NCBI GenBank assembly: GCA_018398765.1
Contig: JAHBMJ010000704.1
Location: 2,501 to 28,772, forward strand
Origin: Chromera velia
Taxonomy: Eukaryota; Sar; Chromeraceae
Direction: 5' to 3'
Length of the DNA: 26,272 bases
Shown: positions 1,412 through 16,700 of the stretch, in pieces
Layout of the letters: every line of letters starts with the position of its first letter
Position numbering within the stretch: position 1 is the stretch's first letter
Notes under the pieces: model-generated
Told to the model about the DNA's origin: nothing
Database searches by the model: none
The model's input: only the letters and a program-made list of their open reading frames with translations
Program-made: the position numbers and the translations under genes

Positions 1412-1500
1412 CTGCACACTAAGTACGAGATCTCCATAAAAATGATGATCGAGGTTAATCGAGGTTTTTATAAAAAAAGTGTTTAACATAGAAAAAAAAG

Positions 1501-1651
1501 TTTCCAATTGGTTCCAATTGGATTCTAATTGGAAATTTTCCAATTCAAAATATATGTGATTTCCAATTGGAAAATTGGATTTCCAATATATTTCTAATTG
1601 AAAATCAAAATTTCCAATATATTTCCAATTGGAAATCAAAATTTCCAATTA
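1501..1651. repeat. CCAATTGG palindrome cluster, unit 1
   Basis: About 150 bp are made mostly of TTCCAATTGGAAAT and its variants, each a near-perfect palindrome centred on AATT, separated by short A/T stretches. The copies can pair with themselves and with each other. It lies close to the 3' end of the element on the minus strand. Confidence 0.8.
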
Positions 1652-2030
1652 TATTTTTTAAAGGTTAAATATTTACATAAAACTAATTCTAATCACTAAT
1701 TCGTGTTCATACAGATTTGAAATCTTTGAGTTTTAAAATATTTTTAAATATTTATGCTGCCAAAATTATGGATAAAACTAAAGCTTTGTACACCAAGTTT
1801 TTGATATATAAAAAAATGTTTCCAAAGCGAAAAGTAGAAGAATGTTTTGTCAGCTTGTATTCAACGGTTTCTATCAGTCTGTAGAGTCAGTACTATTGCG
1901 AGGTCTGTCTCTTTGCACTCATCCTTGACTCGCCCCTCCAGCGGAGTGTTCATCCATGATCTAGTCTTTTAATCATCCAATCATTCTTCTCTGTCCTCCT
2001 TATTGCAACACTGTATTACCTCGACGGTTG

Positions 2031-2312
2031 TCTTAGAGAGGGAGGGGGCCTCGATGTTTGACAATGTATATGGGGGGAGAGGGGCCGGCCTCGATGTTTG
2101 TGTGGGGAGGGAGGGGGCCTCAATGGTTGTGTTAGAGAGGGAGGGGGCCTCGATAGTTATGTGAAGAGGGGGAGGGCCTCGGTGTTTGTGTAGAGAGGGA
2201 GGGGCTCGATGTTTTTATGGAGAGGGAGGAGGCCAGCCTCAATGTTTATGTAGACTCCAAGAGGGAGGGGGCCCAGTGTTGGAGAGAAAGAGGATCTCGA
2301 TGGTTGTGTGGA
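2031..2312. repeat. G-rich ~30-bp minisatellite, unit 1
   Basis: About nine degenerate copies of a roughly 30-bp unit with core GAGAGGGAGGGGGCCTCGATG followed by TTTGTGTG-like spacers. The plus strand is strongly G-rich with several GGG runs per unit, so G-quadruplex formation is conceivable. Short open frames across it (for example 2186-2398) are translations of the repeat. Confidence 0.82.
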
Positions 2313-3410
2313 GTCCTTTTTATCGGATTGTGCCTCGCTGTCTGCTTATTTTTCATAGTATAGCTGCAGTGGATAAATTTCAATTTCAATTTTTATAAAT
2401 ACATTTGGAACCTGACAACCGCTATGATGAATAAATCTAGGAATAAATGTATATAAACAAACAAGATAAACAAATATAAACAGAATTTAAGACACATTTA
2501 GAATTATATTCTCATGTTTAGTTTTTAGAGTTTTTCAATGTATGTATGGATTTTAAAGTATAGATTAGAGTATTTTAGTTAAAAAAATTAGAATTAATGT
2601 TTTAAAATATAATTTTTTAATGTAACATATATTATTGTCAATTGATTGAACGCTAGATTCAACTTTATATATTTAGTTTCTATTCTTCTTTATCTTAATA
2701 TATTGATTCATTATTTTATATAAAACGAATTATAACTATTTATTACCGTTTTTTAAAATTCTGACTTATTGGTAAAGGTCCACTTACCATAACATATGTT
2801 TCTCTTCTTTTATTCTGATTGAGCTAGATTTCGGTAGAAAGAGGACAAGGCCACGCGTTCCTTATGAGGATGTAAGACCACTCTGCCTTACCGCAGGAAT
2901 TCAGTGAGTGGCCGTCACGGAAAAACCGTTCTTGCCTGTGTTATCTTCCTTCGTGAGAGAAGACTGCCCTAGCAGTGTCTGTCCAGCTGCGTATCGAACC
3001 TACCAAACGTCAGACGCTCATTTATGGGCCAATGGCGATGGTGAATGATGATGGTGATGATAAAAAAACATGCTTTATACAACCTATTTTATTCTTTATT
3101 TCATTTCCATAAACAGGCTACTTTAATTATTGAGTTTAATATTCTAGGTCACCCCACAATTATTAACTACTTACTTACTTACTTAATTGTGGTTAAGCCT
3201 AGAGTCTCTGAAACTAGAGACAAATGGCAACCTATGCATACAGTTGTAAACAAAAGGAGCAAACCGCCGCAGCTTAGCCTGCTTCTGCATGAATATGAAC
3301 AACCACGACCCTCCGCAGCCTAGGCTGAAGCTAAAGGCTGAACAACCACACAAGACGCGCGTGCACTCATTTCAGACAAGCTTTGATCAGTGCACTTGAC
3401 GCGCGTACAC

Positions 3411-4586
3411 TCATTTCAGACAAGTTTCGATCAGTGCACTTACCTTTTTTGGCTCCTGGTCCACAATGAATGAAACGAGCTCTCTTACATATGTCTCTTC
3501 TTCCCCGATACCTCTTCCCCCAGCTGCAGCAGTCCATCTTGCTCTACAGACCCTTTCACCAATTCTTGTTCTCTCTTTCACTCTCTCTGCCAGCGAATGA
3601 AGTTTGGATCTAAGCTGCTCTGTTCACACGCATGCAGACAATCGATGCACCGCATCGTCGATCACCTTTTTACCTTCGACTGCAGGACAGTGAATACAGT
3701 GTTCTTCGCAGGATCCACCGTGTCTCTTTCCCCCACTAGCACATGCTCGAAGGAGAGAAGTGAAAAGAGAACCACCAGACAAGAGAGAGCGAGGCAGAGT
3801 ACGCAATTGAACTGTNCCATGCATCCCAGACTGCCCGAGGAACCTCCCTTTCTGTTCTCTTTATGCTTTCTATGAAACCTCCCAACCGACAAGAAAGGAT
3901 CTCTCTCATGGGACACACCTCAACCGGAACTAAAGTTGGCACTTTGAAAGAGTTATAGGGCAAACGGAATGTCCAGCGCACAAATCGAAGCTGCAATGCA
4001 TCAAGTGCAACGATATCTCTCTGACTTACCGGCAAGGCTTCTAGCGAGTACGTTGCCACCGGCTCCCAGAGCGCCTGCAGTAAACGAACTTTGCATCGGG
4101 GGGGCAAAGGACCTAAGGATGAACAAGTGCCCATCACTGCCCCCAAACAGCGTTCAGCACTTTCAAGTCGGTCCCTGACTGACTTTCGTGGGTCCCCTCC
4201 CTCAAACACACGACACCCAAGGTATTTATAGCTCTCTACACGTTCAACTGTCTTCCCTTCAAAAGTCACTTCCCCTTCTATTTCCCTTCTTGAGCCTGAG
4301 AGTGCGAGAACTTTTGTTTTCTTTAAATTCACTTTCAACCCATGTTCCTGACAATAAGAGGCCAAATGGTCCAAACGCCACTGTAGGTCAGAAGAAGAGT
4401 GAGCAAAAATAACAAGATTGTCTGCGTAACCTATGCTCTCAAGCAGTAAGTCCGCCAATCTTACCTCCTCAGGGATACGGGGTCGCTGCTCCGTTGTTTC
4501 ACTCTCCTCCCTCCTCTCTCCGTATTCTCCCCCCCTCTGTCTTTCATCCGTATCTGATTTCCCATCTAAGCCGTTAACAGCTTCCC
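3411..4586 (-). pseudogene. Truncated LINE reverse transcriptase, unit 1
   Basis: Remnant of the C-terminal part of a non-LTR retrotransposon reverse transcriptase. It begins just upstream of catalytic motif C, which here reads Tyr-Ala-Asp-Asn (4417-4428, complement) instead of YADD. The usual downstream blocks follow: the GLKVN..KTKVL block, the YKYLG block, and a Leu/Arg-rich thumb-like region. An assembly N at 3816 removes about 324 bp present in unit 2 and scrambles the frame there. Beyond it the Cys-His region (C-x2-C-x12-H-x4-C) resumes, but an in-frame TGA at 3624-3626 cuts it; unit 2 has CGA at the same place. The fingers and most of the palm are missing at the unit junction, so it cannot be an active enzyme. 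Confidence 0.85.
3816..3816. other. Assembly N hiding about 324 bp
   Basis: A single N joins sequence that in unit 2 lies 324 bp apart (6990 and 7315). The offset between units changes from 3175 to 3498 exactly here. The N is therefore a placeholder or collapsed gap, not one unknown base. Confidence 0.9.
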
Positions 4587-4675
4587 CTGCACACTAAGTA
4601 TGAGATCTCTATAAAAATGATGATCAAGGTTAATCGAGGTTTTTGTAAAAAAAGTGTTTAACATAGAAAAAAAAG

Positions 4676-4826
4676 TTTCTAATTGGTTCCAATTGGATTC
4701 TAATTGGAAATTTTCCAATTCAAAATGTATGTGATTTCCAATTGGAAAATTGGATTTCCAATATATTTCTAATTAGAAATCAAAATTTCCAATATATTTC
4801 CAATTGGAAATCAAAATTTCCAATTA
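4676..4826. repeat. CCAATTGG palindrome cluster, unit 2
   Basis: Counterpart of the cluster at 1501-1651. It differs from unit 1 by four substitutions in this block, all transitions, for example CCAATTGG to CTAATTGG. Confidence 0.8.
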
Positions 4827-5205
4827 TATTTTTTAAAGGTTAAATATTTACATAAAACTAATTCTAATCACTAATTCGTGTTCATACAGATTTGAAATCT
4901 TTGAGTTTTAAAATATTTTTAAATATTTATGCTGCCAAAATTATAGATAAAACTAAAGCTTTGTACACCAAGTTTTTGATATATAAAAAAATGTTTCCAA
5001 AACGAAAAGTAGAAGAGTGTTTTGTCAGCTTGTATTCAACGGTTTCTATCAGTCTGTAGAGTCAGTACTATTGCGAGGTCTGTCTCTTTGCACTCATCCT
5101 TGACTCGCCCCTCCGGTGGAGTGTTCATCCATGATCTAGTCTTTTAATCATCCAATCATTCTTCTCTGTCCTCCTTATTGCAACACTGTATTACCTCGAT
5201 GGTTG

Positions 5206-5487
5206 TCTTAGAGAGGGAGGGGGCCTCGATGTTTGACAATGTATATGGAGGGAGAGGGGCCGGCCTCAATGTTTGTGTGGGGAGGGAGGGGGCTTCGATG
5301 GTTGTGTTGGAGAGGGAGGGGGCCTCGATAGTTATGTGAAGAGGGGGAGGGCCTCGGTGTTTGTGTGGAGAGGGAGGGGCTCGATGTTTTTATGGAGAGG
5401 GAGGAGGCCAGCCTCAGTGTTTATGTAGACTCCGAGAAGGAGGGGGCCCAGTGTTGGAGAGAAAGAGGATCTCGATGGTTGTGTGGA
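5206..5487. repeat. G-rich ~30-bp minisatellite, unit 2
   Basis: Counterpart of the array at 2031-2312 with the same number and order of degenerate units. This shows the minisatellite was already present before the large tandem duplication. Confidence 0.82.
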
Positions 5488-6585
5488 GTCCTTTTTATCG
5501 GATTGTGCCTCGCTGTCTGCTTATTTTTCATAGTATAGCTGCAGTGGATAAATTTCAATTTCAATTTTTATAAATATATTTGGAACCTGACAACCGCTAT
5601 GATGAATAAATCTAGGAATAAATGTATATAAATAAACAAGATAAACAAATATAAACAGAATTTAAGACACATTTAGAATCATATTCTCGTGTTTAGTTTT
5701 TAGAGTTTTTCAATGTATGTATGGATTTTAAAGTATAGATTAGAGTATTTTAGTTAAAAAAATTAGAATTAATGTTTTAAAATATAATTTTTTAATGTAA
5801 CATATATTATTGTCAATTGATTGAACGCTAGATTCAACTTTATATATTTAGTTTCTATTCTTCTTTATCTTAATATATTGATTCATTATTTGATATAAAA
5901 CGAATTATAACTATTTATTACCGTTTTTTAAAATTCTGACTTGTTGGTAAAGGTCCACTTACCATGACATATGTTTCTCTTCTTCTATTCTGATTGAGCT
6001 AGATTTCGGTAGAAAGAGGACAAGGCCATGCGTTCCTTATGAGGATGTAAGACCACTCTGCCTTACCGCAGGAATTCAGTGAGTGGCCATCACGGGAAAA
6101 CCGTTCTTGCCTGTGTTATCTTCCTTCGTGGGAGAAGACTGCCCTAGCAGTGTCTGTCCAGCTGCGTATCGAACCTACCAAACGTCAGACGCTCATTTAT
6201 GGGCCAATGGCGATGGTGAATCATGATGGTGATGATAAAAAAACATGCTTTATACAACCTATTTTATTCTTCATTTCATTTCTATAAACAGGCTACTTTA
6301 ATTATTGAGTTTAATATTCTAGGTCACCCCACAATTATTAACTACTTACTTACTTACTTAATTGTGGTTAAGCCTAGAGTCTCTGAAACTAGAGACAAAT
6401 GGCAACCTATGCATGCAGTTGTAAACAAAAGGAGCAAACCGCCGCAGCTTAGCCTGCTCCTGCATGAATATGAACAACCACGACCTTCCGCAGCCTAGGC
6501 TGAAGCTAAAGGCTGAACAACCACACAAGACGCGCGTGCACTCATTTCAGACAAGCTTTGATCAGTGCACTTGACGCACGTACAC

Positions 6586-8084
6586 TCATTTTAGACAAGT
6601 TTCGATCAGTGCACTTACCTTTTTTGGCTCCTGGTCTACAATGAATGAAACGAGCTCTCTTACATATGTTTCTTCTTCCCCGATACCTCTTCCCCCAGCT
6701 GCAGCAGTCCATCTTGCTCTACAGACCCTTTCACCAATTCTTGTTCTCTCTTTCACTCTCTCTGCCAGCGAATGAAGTTTGGATCTAAGCTGCTCTGTTC
6801 GCACGCATGCAGACAATCGATGCACCGCATCGTCGATCACCTTTTTACCTTCGACTGCAGGACAGTGAATACAGTGTTCTTCGCAGGATCCACCGTGTCT
6901 CTTTCCCCCACTAGCACATGCTCGAAGGAAAGAAGTGAAAAGAGAACCACCAGACAAGAGAGAGCGAGGCAGAGTACGCAATTGAACTGTATAACCCTAC
7001 CCCCTTCTAACCTTCCCCCCTAAAAGCAACATGGCCAGACGCTGGTGCGATCGGTTTTCTATCTGAAAATTACTCAGTCGGGAGTTGCGTGGATAGATGC
7101 CACATGAACGGGTGAGCCTATGCTTGCCGACGGGTCTTGAAGTCAACCATTCCGACAATCATTCTGAGGCTCCCCTTTCCCTCGCTTTCTGCCCGAGTAT
7201 CCATTTATTCGTTCTGTTTCTCCCTCTCTGGCTTTCTTCTCTCAAAAGATCTGGTGCGATTGTCTGAAGCATGCTACTGGCTGAATTGGCCCACACCGGG
7301 GTCAACGATCTATGCCATGCATCCCAGACTGCCCGAGGAACCTCCTTTTCTGTTCTCTTTATGCTTTTTATGAAACCTCCCAACCGACAAGAAAGGATCT
7401 CTCTCATGGGACGCACCCCAACCGAAACTAAAGTTGGCACCTTGAAAGAGTTATAGGGCAAACGGAATGTCCAGCGCACAAATCGAAGCTGCAATGCATC
7501 AAGTGCAACGATATCTCTCTGACTTACCGGCAAGGCTTCTAGCGAGTACGTTGCCACCGGCTCCCAGAGCGCCTGCAGTAAACGAACTTTGCATCGGGGG
7601 GGCAAAGGACCTAAGGATGAACAAGTGCCCATCACTGCCCCTAAACAGCGTTCAGCACTTTCAAGTCGGTCCCTGACTGACTTTCGTGGGTCCTCTCCCT
7701 CAAACACACGACACCCAAGGTATTTATAGCTCTCTACACGTTCAACTGTCTTCTCTTCAAAAGTCACTTCCCCTTCTATTTCCCTTCTTGAGCCTGAGAG
7801 TGCGAGAACTTTTGTTTTCTTTAAATTCACTTTCAACCCATGTTCCTGACAATAAGAGGCCAAATGGTCCAAACGCCACTGTAGGTCAGAAGAAGAGTGA
7901 GCAAAAATAACAAGATTGTCTGCGTAACCTATGCTCTCAAGCAGTAAATCCGCCAATCTTACCTCCTCAGGGATACGGGGTCGCTGCTCCGTTGTTTCAC
8001 TCTCTTCCCTCCTCTCTCCGTATTCTCCCCCCCTCTGTCTTTCATCCGTATCTGACTCTCCATCCAAGCCGTTAACAGCTTCCC
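6586..8084 (-). pseudogene. Truncated LINE reverse transcriptase, unit 2
   Basis: Same element as in unit 1, without the gap. One reading frame runs from the unit junction (8084) to a TGA at 6586-6588. It is interrupted by TGA at 7159-7161 and TAG at 6997-6999 but contains no frameshift. The first 40 or so residues are charged and precede motif C (YADN, 7915-7926). The stretch after it has the typical LINE order: GLKVN..KTKVL, YKYLG, a helical thumb-like region, then the C-terminal C-x2-C-x12-H-x4-C motif near 6810-6880, common to the C-termini of many LINE proteins. Upstream palm motifs are absent. The Asp-to-Asn change in motif C is present in both units, so it predates the tandem duplication. 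The clade cannot be set from this fragment. Confidence 0.87.
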
Positions 8085-8173
8085 CTGCACACTAAGTACG
8101 AGATCTCCATAAAAATGATGATCGAGGTTAATCGAGGTTTTTGTAAAAAAAGTGTTTAACATAGAAAAAAAAG

Positions 8174-8324
8174 TTTCTAATTAGTTCCAATTGGATTCTA
8201 ATTGGAAATTTTCCAATTCAAAATGTATATGATTTCCAATTAGAAAATTGGATTTCCAATATATTTCTAATTGGAAATCAAAATTTCCAATATATTTCCA
8301 ATTGGAAATCAAAATTTCCAATTA
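8174..8324. repeat. CCAATTGG palindrome cluster, unit 3
   Basis: Third copy. Four positions differ from unit 2 and all are G/A changes directly after a T (TpG versus TpA). Several of these break the symmetry of individual palindromes. Confidence 0.8.
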
Positions 8325-8703
8325 TATTTTTTAAAGGTTAAATATTTACATAAAACTAATTCTAATCACTAATTCGTGTTCATACAGATTTGAAATCTTT
8401 GAGTTTTAAAATATTTTTAAATATTTATGCTGCCAAAATTATAGATAAAACTAAAGCTTTGTACACCAAGTTTTTGATATATAAAAAAATGTTTCCAAAG
8501 CAAAAAGTAGAAGAGTGTTTTGTCAGCTTGTATTCAACGGTTTCTATCAGTTTGTAGAGTTAGTACTATTGCGAGGTCTGTCTCTTTGCACTCATCCTTG
8601 ACTTGCCCCTCCGGCGGAGTGTTCATCTATGATCTAGTCTTTTAATCATCCAATCATTCTTCTCTGTCCTCCTTATTGCAACACTGTATTACCTCGACGG
8701 TTG

Positions 8704-10030: not shown

Positions 10031-11125
10031 TCATGTTTCTTCCGTTCCGGTGTGGTTCCATTTGTTGATAGGGTGGGCTCTCCCTATAAACCTATTTCCT
10101 TTCCGTAGATTCTCTTCCGCGAGCAGTGGCTGAAGGTTTGAAAAGTGGAGGCGAGCAATTTGAGTCATTTCATCCGGTTTTTCCCCATCAGGACCGACGT
10201 ACTTGACAGGCACAATATGGTCAACGTGCTACAAACTGCCGTAATTCTCCCACAACATTCCAGGGTTCCCGTGGAAGTCGTCCTTCTCGAGGTGGGCTTT
10301 GAGGTCGGGGAACGAACAACCGAGGTACTCGTGGGTGCGCTTTCGGAATGAGGATCGAAGGCTTTTCCCTTTTCTAATGGCTGAAAGACAATGTTGTAGG
10401 ACCGCTCGTGTGTTGCAGCTTAATCGGTAAATGGTGTCTGTTTTGTATCGAATCTTCTGGGCTTCTCTCTGCCGCAGTACTCTAGCGGCAAAGGCGGGGT
10501 TGTCCTTTTGACACTCTCTACACTCACTTCTGCGCCTCTGATGCTCACAAATTCTCCCACCACCGCACTCTTTGCACGTGGAGCGGATGCGGCCGTGTTC
10601 ATAGACTTGGCTGCCCTTGCATTCTTTACAATTCGGGCGCTGTCGACCGTGCTCGCAAATCCCGGTACCTTTACATTCTTTGCATCTCTGGCGAATACGC
10701 CCATGCTCACAAATCTGACTCCCTTGACAATCACGACAGTGGCCGCGCTGGCGGCCGTGATCACAAATTCCTTTTCCTCCGCAATCTACGCAAAGATATC
10801 TCTTTCGTCCATGAATGCAACGAGAGGCCCCCCCATATTCTGCGCAGTCCGTTCGTCTCCGTCCATGAACGCAGATTTGGGATCCTCCGCACTCTTTGCA
10901 CTTCCTGCGAACGCGGCCATGCTCACAAATTCCTCTCCCTCCGCACTCTCTACAATTGTACCGCATCCTTCCGTGAGGACAGCGGGATTTGCGCGCGGCA
11001 GCCTCGGAATGATGAGGCATGGCTCTACGAGCTGTTGCGCGGAAAGCCTCTGGGAGACTCTGCTCATTTTCATCAGTTACTATGAGCTGTCCCATCATTT
11101 GGGATTCATCGAATTCTCTTGCCAT
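10031..11125 (-). pseudogene. Cys/His repeat array plus HNH endonuclease, copy 2
   Basis: The proposed start is the ATG at 11125, about 48 codons before the first repeat. From about 10981 there are nine 18-residue repeats of the pattern C-x-H-G-R-x-R-x2-C-x2-C-x-G-x2-I. The four Cys/His positions look like zinc ligands. A basic helical linker follows, then an HNH nuclease domain with the HVDHI motif, the NLQP motif and a basic EEN..KGNR tail. The Trp expected before HVDHI is a TAG (10229-10231); the sister copy has TGG there. The frame then continues intact to TGA at 10031. Repeat 3 has Tyr for its last Cys and repeat 8 Tyr for its first Cys. Likely role by domain logic: DNA binding and cleavage, possibly a homing-type enzyme. 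Biochemical function is inferred. Confidence 0.8.
10241..10339 (-). repeat. Highly conserved 99-bp island, copy 2
   Basis: This part of the HNH module (THEYLGCSF to WENYG) matches 11657-11755 with two mismatches in 99 bases, although flanking parts of the two modules differ strongly in both bases and amino acids. Confidence 0.85.
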
Positions 11126-11494
11126 TTGAACGCGCCCGCTCTCTCCAGGAAGAGGATTGTCTGGGCACTCGTGCACCTTATCTCGAGGAAGAGAGGGAAG
11201 AAAGACAGAGGATGACCTGATTTGGCATATAACGGGGGGTATTCTCCGTCCGTCACACCTTCGCCCACTCAATATCATCCCCCACTGTCTTGAACCAGAC
11301 CCTTCTGAAAAATGGGACGTTGCTTTATTACAGAAACGACTGTCCCATGGGGACGCAATGCACGCAGTCAGTGTGGAGAAGCTTCGCACGCCTATAGTCC
11401 CAGAGACAGGCATGTTGACCCGAGTTTCTCTCTGGGGACTGTAGCAGTCAGCGCTGGGGGCGGGTATTGGGGGTGGGAAAAGAAGGGGTGGCGG
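11126..11494 (-). other. Open in-frame linker between the two HNH modules
   Basis: About 123 codons without a stop join the HNH domain of copy 1 to the proposed start of copy 2, in the same frame. The first part is Pro-rich and the rest has no recognisable domain. It may be a linker of a fused protein, a former intergenic region that happens to be open, or an intron. Confidence 0.5.
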
Positions 11495-12475
11495 TTTCCC
11501 GACAAATCTGTTACCTTTTTTGCGATTCTCCTCCGACCACATCGGCTGTAGATTTGAGAAGTGCAGGCGGCCTAGCTGAGTCTGTGCATCTGGCCTCTTA
11601 CTGTTTGGTTCAAGGAACATAATTAGCATAATATGGTCAACGTGCCACAGACTCCCGTAATTCTCCCACGACATTCCGGGGTTCCCGTGGAAGTCGTCCT
11701 TCTCGAGGTGGGCTTTGAGGTCGGGGAACGAACAACCGAGGTACTCGTGGGTGCGTTTGCTTTGAGCGGGGGCTTTGCCTTTCCGGACAGCAGTCAGGCA
11801 TCTGCTGACTGAATTTCTGACAGTATAGGTCAATCGATATGCAACATCCTCTCTGTACCTTACTCTGTGCCTTTCACGCCTTTCTATGAAAGCGGGATTG
11901 TCCTTCTGGCATTTTGTACAGGCGCTTCTCTGGCGTCCATGCTCGCAGATGCTGCCACCCCCGCACTGCTTACATTTTGTGCGCACGCGACCGTGTTTGC
12001 AAATCCTACCCCCACCGCACTCTCGACATACACTGCGAGGACGACCGTGTCCACAAATCGAACTTCCACGACAGTCAACGCAGGTGTACTTGATGCGCCC
12101 GTGTGCACAAATAGCGCTCCCCCCACACTCTTTGCAATTAGCATGCAGCCGACCATGAGCGCAGATCGAGCTGCCCCCACACACTCCACAGTTATGACGC
12201 CTTCACCCATGTTCACAAATCCCTTTTCCTCCGCAGTCTTTGTATTGGGAGTGCTGACGGCCATGTATGCACACTTGTGTCCCCCCGCACTCCTTGCAAT
12301 CATGCTTGCGCTGGCGTCTGTGCTCGCAAATTCCGCCCCCTCCACAATCTCTGCAAAGATATTTTATCCTACCGTGTGGGCACAGTGGTCTCTGCCTACG
12401 GTTTCTATTCGGAGAAGCAGTGTCGAGGAACTCCTTCCCTGAATTACGAGTAGGAGAAACACAGCTCCCTCTCAT
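11495..12475 (-). pseudogene. Cys/His repeat array plus HNH endonuclease, copy 1
   Basis: The first of two tandem copies in transcription order. An ATG at 12475 precedes nine repeats starting at 12382. An HNH domain (WHVDHI, NLQP, EEN..KGNR) ends near 11495. An in-frame TGA (12203-12205) replaces the conserved Arg of repeat 4 (HGR); reading continues in the same frame with well-formed repeats on both sides. Repeat 2 has one extra residue between ligands two and three, and repeat 3 has Tyr for its third ligand. No stop follows the HNH domain: the frame stays open through 11126-11494 into copy 2, so the two may once have been one double-module protein. The array-plus-HNH layout is seen in the sequence; zinc binding and nuclease activity follow from the motifs. 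Confidence 0.8.
11657..11755 (-). repeat. Highly conserved 99-bp island, copy 1
   Basis: Partner of 10241-10339. Identity falls off abruptly on both sides, which is more typical of gene conversion than of uniform selection. Confidence 0.85.
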
Positions 12476-13060
12476 AACAATCTCCTCAATTGCCTCCCTC
12501 TCCCCGATCCGTGGCACGGCTACCGTTGAAAAATAGGTACATTGGATTCCTCCAAAAGCCTCGTTTCCCAGACCTGCCCGCGCCCTATATATCACGGTCA
12601 GCAATTGCAGAGAGGTAGCAGAGGCGCGACTATCTTTTCTGAACTGCCTTTGATCATGGAGGAGTGCGTAGATGGATTGGATACGGGGTACGTGGAGGCG
12701 CCTCTCTTCAGCAGCCCTGTAGCTGAATGGAGGAGCAAAAGGGCTCAGACGGGAGTCTGGGGGAGGAAAAGACTGGTTCCGCAGTCCTCCTTCGCCCCCT
12801 GTCTTCAGAGACACCCTTGTTGTTGGAATATGAGGGCCACTTGTGAGAGAGAGCCTCAAACTCTCTTGAGCAAGACTGTGATAAATGGTCTGCCTTGTCG
12901 CTGCTTGAACTCTCCATCTTCCATTCATGATGGACGGCTTCGTTCTCTGCCTTTCATTCTGTGAGAAGAGGGCAGGAGTTCTCTGGAGAAGGGAGGAGAC
13001 TGCAGATTGAAGAGAATGGCGTGAAGCGCGTCGATAGAGCTTCGTGGTAATGCGTCTCAT
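12476..13060 (-). other. Open in-frame N-terminal extension of HNH copy 1
   Basis: The frame of copy 1 stays open upstream for 195 codons to an ATG at 13060. The first 35 or so residues are rich in Arg, Ser and Leu and almost free of acidic residues, which resembles a mitochondrial presequence. The remainder has no known motif and copy 2 has no matching extension. It may be real coding sequence, 5' leader or intron. Confidence 0.35.
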
Positions 13061-13420: not shown

Positions 13421-13609
13421 TGCTATGCGCTAGTCTAAACATAAGAAAATAGAGTAAATGATAGAAAATAATAGAAAAGAGGCAATGAATTTAACATTTT
13501 AACTTGGATAAGGAGAGAAGATCAAACGATTGAAAATGAAAATAAAAAAGAAGCAAAAAGATAAGAAAAGACAAGAATTAGGTAAAGACGATCTCTAAGT
13601 TAGGACCTA

Positions 13610-13681
13610 GCCTCCGTAGCCTAGTGGTTAGGATGAGAGGCTCGGACCGGGAGGTCCCGAGTTCGAGTCCCACCATCGGCA
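13610..13681 (+). promoter_or_regulatory. tRNA-like internal Pol III promoter (A and B boxes), copy A
   Basis: A 72-base block resembles a tRNA: TAGCCTAGTGGTTAGG at 13617 fits an A box and GTTCGAGTCC at 13661 fits a B box, with tRNA-like spacing of 44 bases between starts. The acceptor, anticodon and T stems do not pair properly by hand, so it is a tRNA-derived promoter of SINE type rather than a tRNA gene. Confidence 0.6.
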
Positions 13682-13710
13682 GAATTCCAAAATACATGTA
13701 TCCGAATAAA

Positions 13711-13995
13711 GCACGGTCTAAAATCGATAAGAGCTGGATAAGACCTGGTCTAAAATCGAAGATAAAAAGAAGCGCGATCAGAAATCGAGACGTCGAATAG
13801 TGCGCGGTCTGAATTCGAATAACCATCAGACCAAAAACCGAATAGTGCACGGTCTGAATTCGAAGTATCCGAATACCACTCGGTCGAAACTCACAATACC
13901 CGATTTTATCTGGTCGAATTCTGCGCGGTCTGAATTCGAATTTAAGCACGGCGATTAATTGGCTCTGAAATCGAATAATCGCCCGGTCTAAATGG
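13711..13995. repeat. CGGTCTGAATTCGAAT minisatellite, copy A
   Basis: About a dozen degenerate units of 20-35 bp share the core CGGTCTGAATTCGAAT or CGGTCTAAAATCGA. The core contains the palindromes GAATTC and ATTCGAAT. The long open frame on the minus strand (13578-13949, Phe-Arg-Pro and Ile-Gln-Thr-like repeats) is a translation of this array. Confidence 0.82.
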
Positions 13996-14331
13996 ACTGT
14001 CGCATCTGCAAAATCGGATCACGCAAGAAAAATTAAAATCTAGATTTCCCTGAGAGGATCTCCGAGGTCATAGGTCATCTCGGGAGGTCCGACACTATCA
14101 GAATTGCCTTTCTGAAGTCAACCTCCAAACTTGAGCAAAAAAACGCGAAGATCTGCATTCGATATTAACGTGAAATTGAGGGATAAGCAATCAACCTTAG
14201 CGCTATAGATTGAATTTTCTGGAACCTGACCTCTGACTCTTCAGACACTTAGATCATCTTGGAGCCTCACTGGAGCCTGACTAGTGTCACTTCCCTTTAT
14301 CTATTCTGAGGGCTTCCTGTAGCTCTTAACA

Positions 14332-15130
14332 CGTGGTGACTTTTTTCAACTGTCACAGGAGGATGAGAGGAGTTAATGGGGAGAAAGGAAGGAGGAAGGC
14401 AGAACATGTTCTTCTTTTCTTGAATTTTTTTTTTTCTTTTCTTTCCAGGTTTTCCTCGATTGACCGAAATGAAAAAGAGAGCAAAAGAAAGATGCGCGTC
14501 AATTACAATCATAACAAGAGTGTCAAACGGGGGAGTTGGAAAAAAAAAAAAAGAAAAACTCACGAAAAAGAAGTGTTTAGCTTTCGGTTGACAGAATCAA
14601 GAGACGTGAGAAAAAAAAAGTGTCGGTAGTACTAATGATCTGTATTAAAAAGAAAAAACGGTCGCCTTTGCGATTGTTTTTTTCGTGTGTCCGTCATAGT
14701 CTATGAATCCGCGTGAGTCTCTTACACCAAGTCTATAGATTCCTCGTGTATGTCAGAACTGGGGTGATCTGACACTACATAGAGGTCTGAGTCTGTGCAC
14801 CAATCGGTATATTCCTTTTTTTTTTTTTTTTTTTTTTTTTCCCGGGCCCGGGTTCACTTGTCATCCTTCATAATACTTGGAAACATCGTGTGTCCATTCC
14901 GATCGATAGTCACTTTCGATAAAAAGGAAAATACGGAGGCAACAAAACCCTCGATCAAATTATTTGAAGCAATCAAAAACTTCATTTCACTACTATTTTC
15001 TTTTAGTATTTAACTAAACACTAGACTAAACACCTTCCTAAGTTTGATTCTCATGCAGTTAAGAAAAGGACACACGCATGCTATGCGCTAAGATTTGGGT
15101 ATGGAACCCCAAACTTAAAAGGGAGACGCA
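14332..15130. other. Spacer between the 910-bp repeats
   Basis: About 800 bp present only once, with many homopolymer A and T runs and no convincing coding frame. It includes the T25 tract at 14816 and, next to copy B, a short hairpin flanked by direct repeats. Confidence 0.6.
14816..14852. repeat. T25 tract followed by CCCGGGCCCGGG
   Basis: Twenty-five T residues run directly into a perfect 12-bp GC palindrome. On the minus strand this reads as a GC palindrome followed by a poly(A) run. Confidence 0.9.
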
Positions 15131-15142
15131 TGCTATGCGCTA
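15074..15142. repeat. 17-bp direct repeats flanking a small hairpin
   Basis: ACGCATGCTATGCGCTA occurs at 15074-15090 and again at 15126-15142. Between them a TTTGGG...CCCAAA hairpin can form. The second copy is the left edge of the 910-bp repeat B. Confidence 0.75.
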
Positions 15143-15318
15143 GTCTAGATATAAGAAAATAGAGTAAATGATAGAAAATAATAGAAAAGAGGCAACGAAT
15201 TTAACATTTTAACTTGGATAAGGAGACAAGATCAAACGATTGAAAATAAAAATAAAAAGAAGCAAAAAGATAAGAAAAGACAAGAATTAGGTAAAGACGA
15301 TCTCTAAGTTAGGACCTA

Positions 15319-15390
15319 GCCTCCGTAGCCTAATGGTCAGGACGAGAGGCTCGGACCGAGAGGTCCCGAGTTCGAGTCCCACCATCGGCA
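15319..15390 (+). promoter_or_regulatory. tRNA-like internal Pol III promoter, copy B
   Basis: Counterpart of 13610-13681. The A box is altered (TAGCCTAATGGTCAGG) while the B box GTTCGAGTCC at 15370 is intact. Copy A therefore looks more competent for transcription. Confidence 0.55.
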
Positions 15391-15419
15391 GAATTCCAAA
15401 ATACATGCATCCGAATAAA

Positions 15420-15704
15420 GCACGGTCTAAAATCGATAAGAGCTGGATAAGACCTGGTCTAAAATCGAAGATAAAAAGAAGCGCGATCAGAAATCGAGAC
15501 GTCGAATAGTGCGCGGTCTGAATTCGAATAACCATCAGACCAAAAACCGAATAGTGCACGGTCTGAATTCGAAGTATCCGAATACCACTCGGTCGAAACT
15601 CACAATACCCGATTTTATCTGGTCGAATTCTGCGCGGTCTGAATTCGAATTTAAGCACGGCGATTAATCGGCTCTGAAGTCGAATAATCGCCCGGTCTGA
15701 ATGG
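15420..15704. repeat. CGGTCTGAATTCGAAT minisatellite, copy B
   Basis: Same array in the second 910-bp repeat, with identical unit order, so it was duplicated as a block. Confidence 0.82.
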
Positions 15705-16038
15705 ACTGTCGCATCTGCAAAATCGGATCACGCAAGAAAAATCAAAATCTAGATTTCCCTGAGAGGATCTCCGAGGTCATAGGTCATCTCGGGAGGTCCG
15801 ACACTATCAGAATTGCCTTTCTGAAGTCAACCTCCAAACTTGAGCAAAAACGCGAAGATCTGCATTCGATATTGACGTGAAATTGAGTGATAAGCGATCA
15901 ACCTTAGCGCTATAGATTGAATTTTCTGGAACCTGACCTCTGACTCTTCAGACACTTAGATCATCTTGGAGCCTCACTGGAGCCTGACTAGTGTCACTTC
16001 CCTTTATCTATTCTGAGGGCTTCCTGTAGCTCTTAACA

Positions 16039-16700
16039 AAGGAAGGAAAGTAAGGAGTCTTAGATAAAGAAAGAAGGAAGGCCAATTAATAAACATGGAA
16101 GGCAAGACAGAAGGAAGGAAGGAAAAAAGGAATCAAGAAAACAAGAAAAAAGAAGGAAGAAAGAGAGGAAGGAAGGAAGGAAAGAAGGAAAAAAGGAAGG
16201 AAGGAAGGAAGAACGGCAGTCAGGGATAAAAGACAGAAGAAAATGAAAAAAGAAGGAACTTCAAGGAAAGAAGAAAGCAGCAGGGGAAGGAAGAAAGAAG
16301 CAAAAGGAGAGACAGGGCAATGAAGGAAGGAAGAAGGAAGGAAGGAAGGAAGGAAGGAAGAAAGGAAGGAAGGAAGGAAGGAAGGAAGGAAGAAAGGAAA
16401 GAAGGAAGGAAGGAAGGAAAAAAGGAAGAAAGGAAAGAAACGAATAGAGGAAAGACGGGAAAAACGATGGAAGAAAGGAAGGATGAAAGACAGGAAGGAA
16501 ACAGACACAGAAAGCTTGAAAATTTTTGAACAGAAGAAAGAACGAAAGTACGACGGGGGAACGATGCAATGAAGGGAGGAAAGAAAGACGGAAAGAAGGG
16601 ATTCTAACAAGGAAAAAAAGGAAGAAAGGATCGAAGAAGGAAGAAAGAAAGAAAGTCACAAAGAGAGAAAGAGAGAGAGGGGGAAAAAGAAAGAGAGAGA

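Follow-up and report, generated by a model that had tools for sequence, protein, structure and literature searches.

TALE proteins are built from helical repeats of 33-35 residues in which residues 12 and 13 vary, PPR proteins from helix-turn-helix repeats of 35 residues, and the C2H2 zinc finger follows the pattern C-x2-4-C-x12-H-x3-5-H over about 28 residues. In engineered zinc-finger nucleases a zinc array is joined to the FokI nuclease, with two units per site. In the phage enzyme I-TevI a zinc finger is tied to a nuclease, and the linker and the zinc finger together are the distance determinant, as described in an excerpt of PMC2988022. An excerpt of PMC12220804 reports an HNH endonuclease of the NUMOD type in a polinton-like virus. 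Here we describe a gene of the alga Chromera velia that joins tandem zinc-type modules to HNH nuclease domains. It was found in a stretch of 26,272 nucleotides of contig JAHBMJ010000704.1, called the window below, where a single reading frame on the minus strand runs from 13060 to 10031. The gene would belong to a natural family of double-headed, array-guided nucleases of viral type that are probably mitochondrial, a reading to which we give about even chances.

The array and its nuclease partners

Translation of 13060-10031 gave, in this order, a leader, about 200 weakly conserved residues, array 1, the nuclease domain HNH1, a linker of about 170 residues, array 2 and the nuclease domain HNH2, all on the minus strand. 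Array 1 (11909..12382) has nine CxH-x6-CxxC modules of 18 residues, of which module 2 has one extra residue and module 4 contains a stop; array 2 (10511..10981) has nine further modules. HNH1 (11498..11911) carries the motif W-H-x-D-H ... N ... N, and HNH2 (10082..10513) is interrupted by a stop. A first-pass annotation of the window had described these eighteen modules, nine and nine, fused to an HNH nuclease, and had listed the residues at module positions 8 and 9. The translation bore this out and placed an HNH domain after each array, with YL, HD, SQ, HN, AN, YT, SV, TK and SA in the first set and YN, RK, TD, YL, GH, QR, PN, ST and SE in the second. The range it had given, 10031..12475, is right at the 10031 end, but the gene is on the minus strand and starts near 13060, outside that range.

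Relatives outside the alga were searched for with module patterns. A two-module pattern returned one stretch from IMG/VR and three from contigs of the genomes of 84,980 prokaryote species, and looser patterns returned 13 and 97 viral stretches. From 58 parsed frames, 21 were dropped as low-complexity or unlike and 37 genuine array frames were kept, near-copies counted (35 from viral contigs and two from genome contigs). The 18-residue module, CxH-x6-CxxC plus its linker, was present in phage-like, polinton-like and giant-virus sequences. In 30 of the 37 frames the array ran on into a nuclease-type domain, with the types assigned by eye: the WHxDH HNH of the window type in three (L136, L178 and L196), a CxxC HNH in eight, a phrog_3322-type endonuclease in six, a domain with the conserved pattern 'QFPNC...SDHxHDG...YRGEIC' in seven, an Endonuclease_7-like domain in five and another HNH-like domain in one.

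When ten outside array proteins were scanned, five matched named nuclease families: the HNH endonuclease phrog_3118 (L113 and L191), the endonuclease phrog_3322 (L122) and, above the cut-off, Pfam Endonuclease_7 (L148 and L179). L136 and L178 matched phrog_28061, a family of unknown function, and align with the HNH domain of the window, which itself matched phrog_28061 weakly. Profile comparison did not link the window type (A1) to A4 (E-value 0.079), A6 (0.3) or A7 (0.75), nor A4 to A5 (0.087), and linked A6 to A7 (1.2e-9); the alignments of the nuclease types are small, and all types are possibly distant His-Me finger kin. Because one array type stands before several nuclease types, the array appears to be a portable targeting part and not a part of one enzyme. 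This swapping of nucleases is the strongest evidence for a putative portable array that targets nucleic acid, and we consider it likely that the array brings the nuclease to its place on nucleic acid. The recognition role, earlier proposed from the fusion of a modular array to an HNH domain, has become likelier on the same ground.

Judging by its matches to a telomere-resolvase domain and to the Poxvirus A32 ATPase, the contig of L178 may come from a polinton-like virus. L178 and L196 (IMGVR_UViG_3300037485_001433) are the array nucleases of two inverted, 100% identical copies of a 7.7 kb stretch in a viral contig of 34.7 kb; beside the telomere-resolvase domain, this is either a hairpin-ended genome or an assembly artefact. 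On one viral contig an Endonuclease-VII-like gene in which no array was parsed (L175:4020-4541) lies between two array nucleases. A six-module array nuclease (L114) was found on PAUB01000035.1, labelled as an Opitutaceae metagenome-assembled genome; its neighbours look eukaryotic- or giant-viral-like by eye (RCC1-like repeats and a chromodomain-like frame), and the contig is perhaps misbinned.

Variation and selection in the module

The assembly of the same genome (177.8 Mb, 4040 contigs) was searched with the window frame, which gave 178 matches. The module set comprised 382 modules from 25 loci, the window and 24 others, with up to 15 parsed modules in succession; 300 of the 382 fit the strict motif. 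The entropy of the four presumed zinc ligands C1, H3, C10 and C13 was 0.03-0.12 bits. The framework, earlier described as near-constant, is not fully so in the window copy: a ligand position is Y in three modules, namely module 3 of both arrays and module 8 of array 2, and module 2 of array 1 is one residue longer. The variation had been assigned to the pair 8-9. Position 9 was indeed the most variable (3.88 bits), but position 6 (3.08) exceeded position 8 (2.81), and positions 16 (2.77) and 2 (2.45) followed.

Selection was analysed in 17 disjoint pairs of paralog arrays with 115 module pairs, where the non-synonymous change per position (pN) was set against the pooled synonymous change (pS); for L016 only the second array was parsed, and its partner in the comparison was array 1 of L012. 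The pooled pS was 0.57, so that silent change is near saturation. The pN was 0.005 at the ligands and 0.079 at positions 4, 5 and 7. Position 9 was the fastest (0.40), followed by position 6 (0.27), and position 8 (0.16) was as ordinary as positions 2 (0.18), 11 (0.17) and 16 (0.18). The fast positions here are 9 and 6, and the pair as first described is not supported. With the zinc ligands almost frozen against the pooled pS, the family is, on this comparison, under clear purifying selection and is or was functional. The repeats are not a chance pattern, since the genome matches, the share of strict-motif modules and the pN of the ligands exclude it.

At fixed array places, position 8 was often common to paralogs and position 9 rarely. 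The majority residue at position 9 reached 0.70 of 20 at module 1 of array 2 and 0.14-0.38 at the other 11 places examined. Residues were held in module 1 of array 2, with Y8 (0.90 of 20) and the same D9, and also in the last module at position 8 (0.80). Among 140 non-algal modules the entropies were 3.55 bits at position 9, 3.36 at 8 and 3.00 at 6, with 3.26 and 3.09 at the linker positions 16 and 17, which fits the proposed 8-9 pair better. Position 5 was basic in 120 and position 7 in 123 of these 140 modules.

Arrays start with CxH and finish with CxxC, and this supports CxH-x6-CxxC as the zinc unit. In Pfam and NCBIfam no model above the cut-off was found for the array module, and the search for a solved fold found none. 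The predicted structures were regular repeats with mean predicted local distance difference test scores (pLDDT) of 88.9 and, for array 2, 84.6, and in the array part of the models no helix reached four residues.

The algal family and the window copy

A query with the HNH1 domain gave 127 matches in the genome, which formed 72 gene-level clusters on 70 contigs. Exactly two HNH matches were present in 51 of the 72 clusters, and 34 HNH pairs shared one stop-free frame, a count based on equal frame length that may be off by one or two. Typically, a single open frame of about 900-1100 residues comprises leader, array 1, HNH1, linker, array 2 and HNH2. Further loci were extracted at 24 of 64 planned places, and in most of them array-HNH-array-HNH lay within a single frame. 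L013 and L016 were split between frames or cut, L029 was stopped, and L030 and L031 had one HNH domain. The His-Me finger signature H-x-D-H ... N ... N was present in all 27 HNH domains that were aligned out of 40 extracted (two more with a stop were excluded), with H90, D92, H93, N120 and N129 invariant.

In a tree of the 40 algal and four viral HNH domains, many inner forks of which are not resolved, the HNH1 and HNH2 labels needed four changes each, compared with means of 13.4 and 14.0 after shuffling, and none of 500 shuffles was as low. From this clustering of the labels, the doubling predates most of the family's expansion. Exchanges between the two groups were also seen, for example L019_H2 and L024_H2. 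At the divergent locus L032 both HNH domains group together, which may reflect a separate doubling or gene conversion.

The leader, the first 30 residues (12971..13060), is Arg-rich and resembles a mitochondrial presequence. Nineteen leaders from the 25 loci, chosen by a start motif whose second residue must be R, K, Q or N, had on average 5.4 basic (R+K) and 0.6 acidic (D+E) residues per 30 and an amphipathic moment of 0.32, compared with 3.5, 2.1 and 0.20 in 133 control windows of the same proteins. Ten of the 19 had no acidic residue. Judged by eye, no hydrophobic signal peptide was present in the leaders, which points to the mitochondrion rather than a complex plastid, and from this composition we lean towards a mitochondrial family.

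The linker (10982..11497) is open in the window copy and has the motif R-S-F-S-T at 11372-11386. The pattern R-x-[FLIMYW]-[SHYTAC]-[ST], picked post hoc, occurred in 18 of 21 linkers of the genome (mean 3.2 and maximum 9 after shuffling), where the linker starts are possibly off by a few residues owing to a fixed-offset fallback; before array 1 it occurred in only 6 of 21 copies (mean 2.4 and maximum 7 after shuffling). Two Arg motifs recurred in the linkers, RSLHS-like in 18 of 21 and RSLSVL-like in 12 of 21, and the linker was otherwise variable. The pattern resembles a presequence cleavage site, and the recurring motifs are possible processing sites. The two halves may be separated after import, or the motif may be the relic of a second leader.

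In the window copy, in-frame stops were found in module 4 of array 1 (TGA, 12203..12205) and within HNH2 (TAG, 10229..10231), ahead of the terminal stop at 10031..10033. Because of these two stops, the window copy is probably a dead pseudogene. The first-pass annotation had missed both stops, the doubled unit, the roughly 72 loci and the fastest positions 9 and 6.

Immediately upstream of the gene lies a direct duplication of 1.7 kb (13421-16038) with pieces 96-98% alike. The region 1412-8384 is a retroelement in repeated copies: three stretches of 300 bases at 1412, 4587 and 8085 are 97-98% alike and spaced 3175 and 3498 bases, and the minus strand has reverse-transcriptase-like frames at 3736-4458 and at 7159-8067, of which the second matches PF00078. 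Long tetranucleotide-type repeats (GACT-like and GGAA-like) at 19-700 and 16072-16700 are open by chance in some frames.

Possible mechanism, alternatives and known systems

In the mechanism we favour, each 18-residue module would bind one zinc through C1, H3, C10 and C13, and neighbouring modules would stack to a regular rod. The rod would lie on nucleic acid, most likely DNA, gripped by the basic residues 5 and 7, and residues 6, 8 and 9, which differ between modules, would set its site preference. The HNH domain directly after the last module would then cut beside the chosen site. The unit may have been drawn from the pool of free-standing nucleases of viruses and phages, where the array was swapped between nuclease types, and in the alga the array and HNH were duplicated together inside a single gene ahead of most of the family growth. 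With two arrays and two nucleases, each protein could act as its own dimer and nick the two strands, and the leader would route it to mitochondria. That the array is sequence-selective is, in our judgement, an evenly balanced question.

Several observations weigh against sequence reading and would suit an array that serves as a DNA clamp or ruler and has no preference for a sequence, which we hold to be unlikely but the foremost alternative. In the 17 paralog pairs pN exceeded the pooled pS at no module position, so no positive selection was seen. Position 8 behaves like other surface positions, and position 9 is mostly free at fixed array places. Among 366 modules, 108 different residue pairs were found at 8-9, unlike a short dictionary of the repeat-variable diresidue type, and they speak against a small residue code of the TALE kind. 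The zinc element of I-TevI can also act as a ruler, according to the excerpt of PMC2988022. Other findings tell against a clamp: variation peaks at position 9 in two separate module sets with a near-constant framework around it, residues are held at some places (Y8 and D9 in module 1 of array 2, and position 8 of the last module), and the arrays of the two sets, with 2 to 15 parsed modules, are long for a clamp. The genes could also be selfish homing-type nuclease genes that are copied by repair into the empty sites they cut, so that the algal family would be a parasite expansion and the window copy one of its dead members. Two or three array nucleases are found together on several viral contigs. 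In two of these contigs the types differ (L123 with L175 twice; L152 with L153), and in two others they are the same (L121 with L122; L125 twice with L146). Free-standing homing endonucleases show such an arrangement. Phage T4 likewise has 12 free-standing endonucleases (excerpt of PMC2988022). The homology of the algal paralogs ends close to the gene, and 12 of the 127 HNH matches contain stops. We consider homing improbable, as no target duplication or terminal repeat was found in the three paralog pairs examined, the clusters are spread over 70 contigs, and a role in the host is suggested by the common leader and by the strong purifying selection.

Mitochondrial RNA enzymes, in which the arrays choose sites in fragmented ribosomal RNA transcripts as a zinc counterpart of the PPR proteins, appear quite improbable to us. 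To our knowledge the HNH domains that have been described cut DNA, and the viral relatives pair the array with endonucleases of the DNA type. The large family, the leader and the modular array would nevertheless suit such a role, as would the fragmented mitochondrial ribosomal RNAs that an excerpt of PMC9550989 reports for Myzozoa, if the alga belongs there. Least probable of all is an array that binds protein or senses metal or redox state and takes no part in target choice; its cysteine-rich modules could be redox switches and no solved relative was found, but a nuclease of one type or another is its recurring partner in 30 of the 37 outside frames.

Returning to the array-guided nuclease, a bolder form of this reading, which we put forward only tentatively, is that the arrays are a third natural class of modular sequence-reading array beside TALE and PPR. 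Residues 6, 8 and 9 between fixed basic residues would read bases, phages, polinton-like and giant viruses would have moved the array from one of several nuclease types to another, and a single alga would have made from it some 70 double-headed, mitochondria-bound nucleases, a natural equivalent of paired zinc-finger nucleases. An array that reads sequence would be a compact targeting module with 18 residues per step, naturally shuffled and already working with nucleases of several types, and its code could be sought in the many natural arrays of the algal family. Should there be no code, a large double-nuclease family with a mitochondrial-type leader would still bear on the maintenance or processing of the mitochondrial genome of this alga.

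In the literature searched, no published description of the array family was found. The array model matched the predicted structures of two Pithovirus proteins, LCPAC304 'DnaJ central domain protein' (E-value 2e-20) and LCPAC404 'Endonuclease' (8e-11), both names as deposited. The DnaJ central zinc domain was rejected, with no match to Pfam DnaJ_CXXCXGXG in the window or the ten outside array proteins. TALE and PPR proteins are likewise tandem repeats with variable residues, but the period here is 18, and the model of array 2 has only three-residue turns, unlike TALE, and lacks helices of four residues or longer, unlike PPR. The C2H2 array was also rejected, since the module here is C-x-H-x6-C-x2-C with a period of 18. 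Recombination endonuclease VII (PF02945) corresponds to the nuclease part of the viral L148 and L179, not to that of the window. The HNH homing endonucleases of the NUMOD (I-HmuI) type likewise have small modules adjoining an HNH nuclease, whereas the array here consists of tandem zinc-type modules, up to 15 parsed consecutively; Pfam NUMOD gave no match in two window frames (E-value up to 1) or the ten outside proteins (up to 0.1). I-TevI has a single finger and a GIY-YIG nuclease, here replaced by an array and HNH. Compared with engineered zinc-finger nucleases, the present proteins are natural, use a CHCC module of 18 residues and an HNH nuclease, and hold both halves in one chain.
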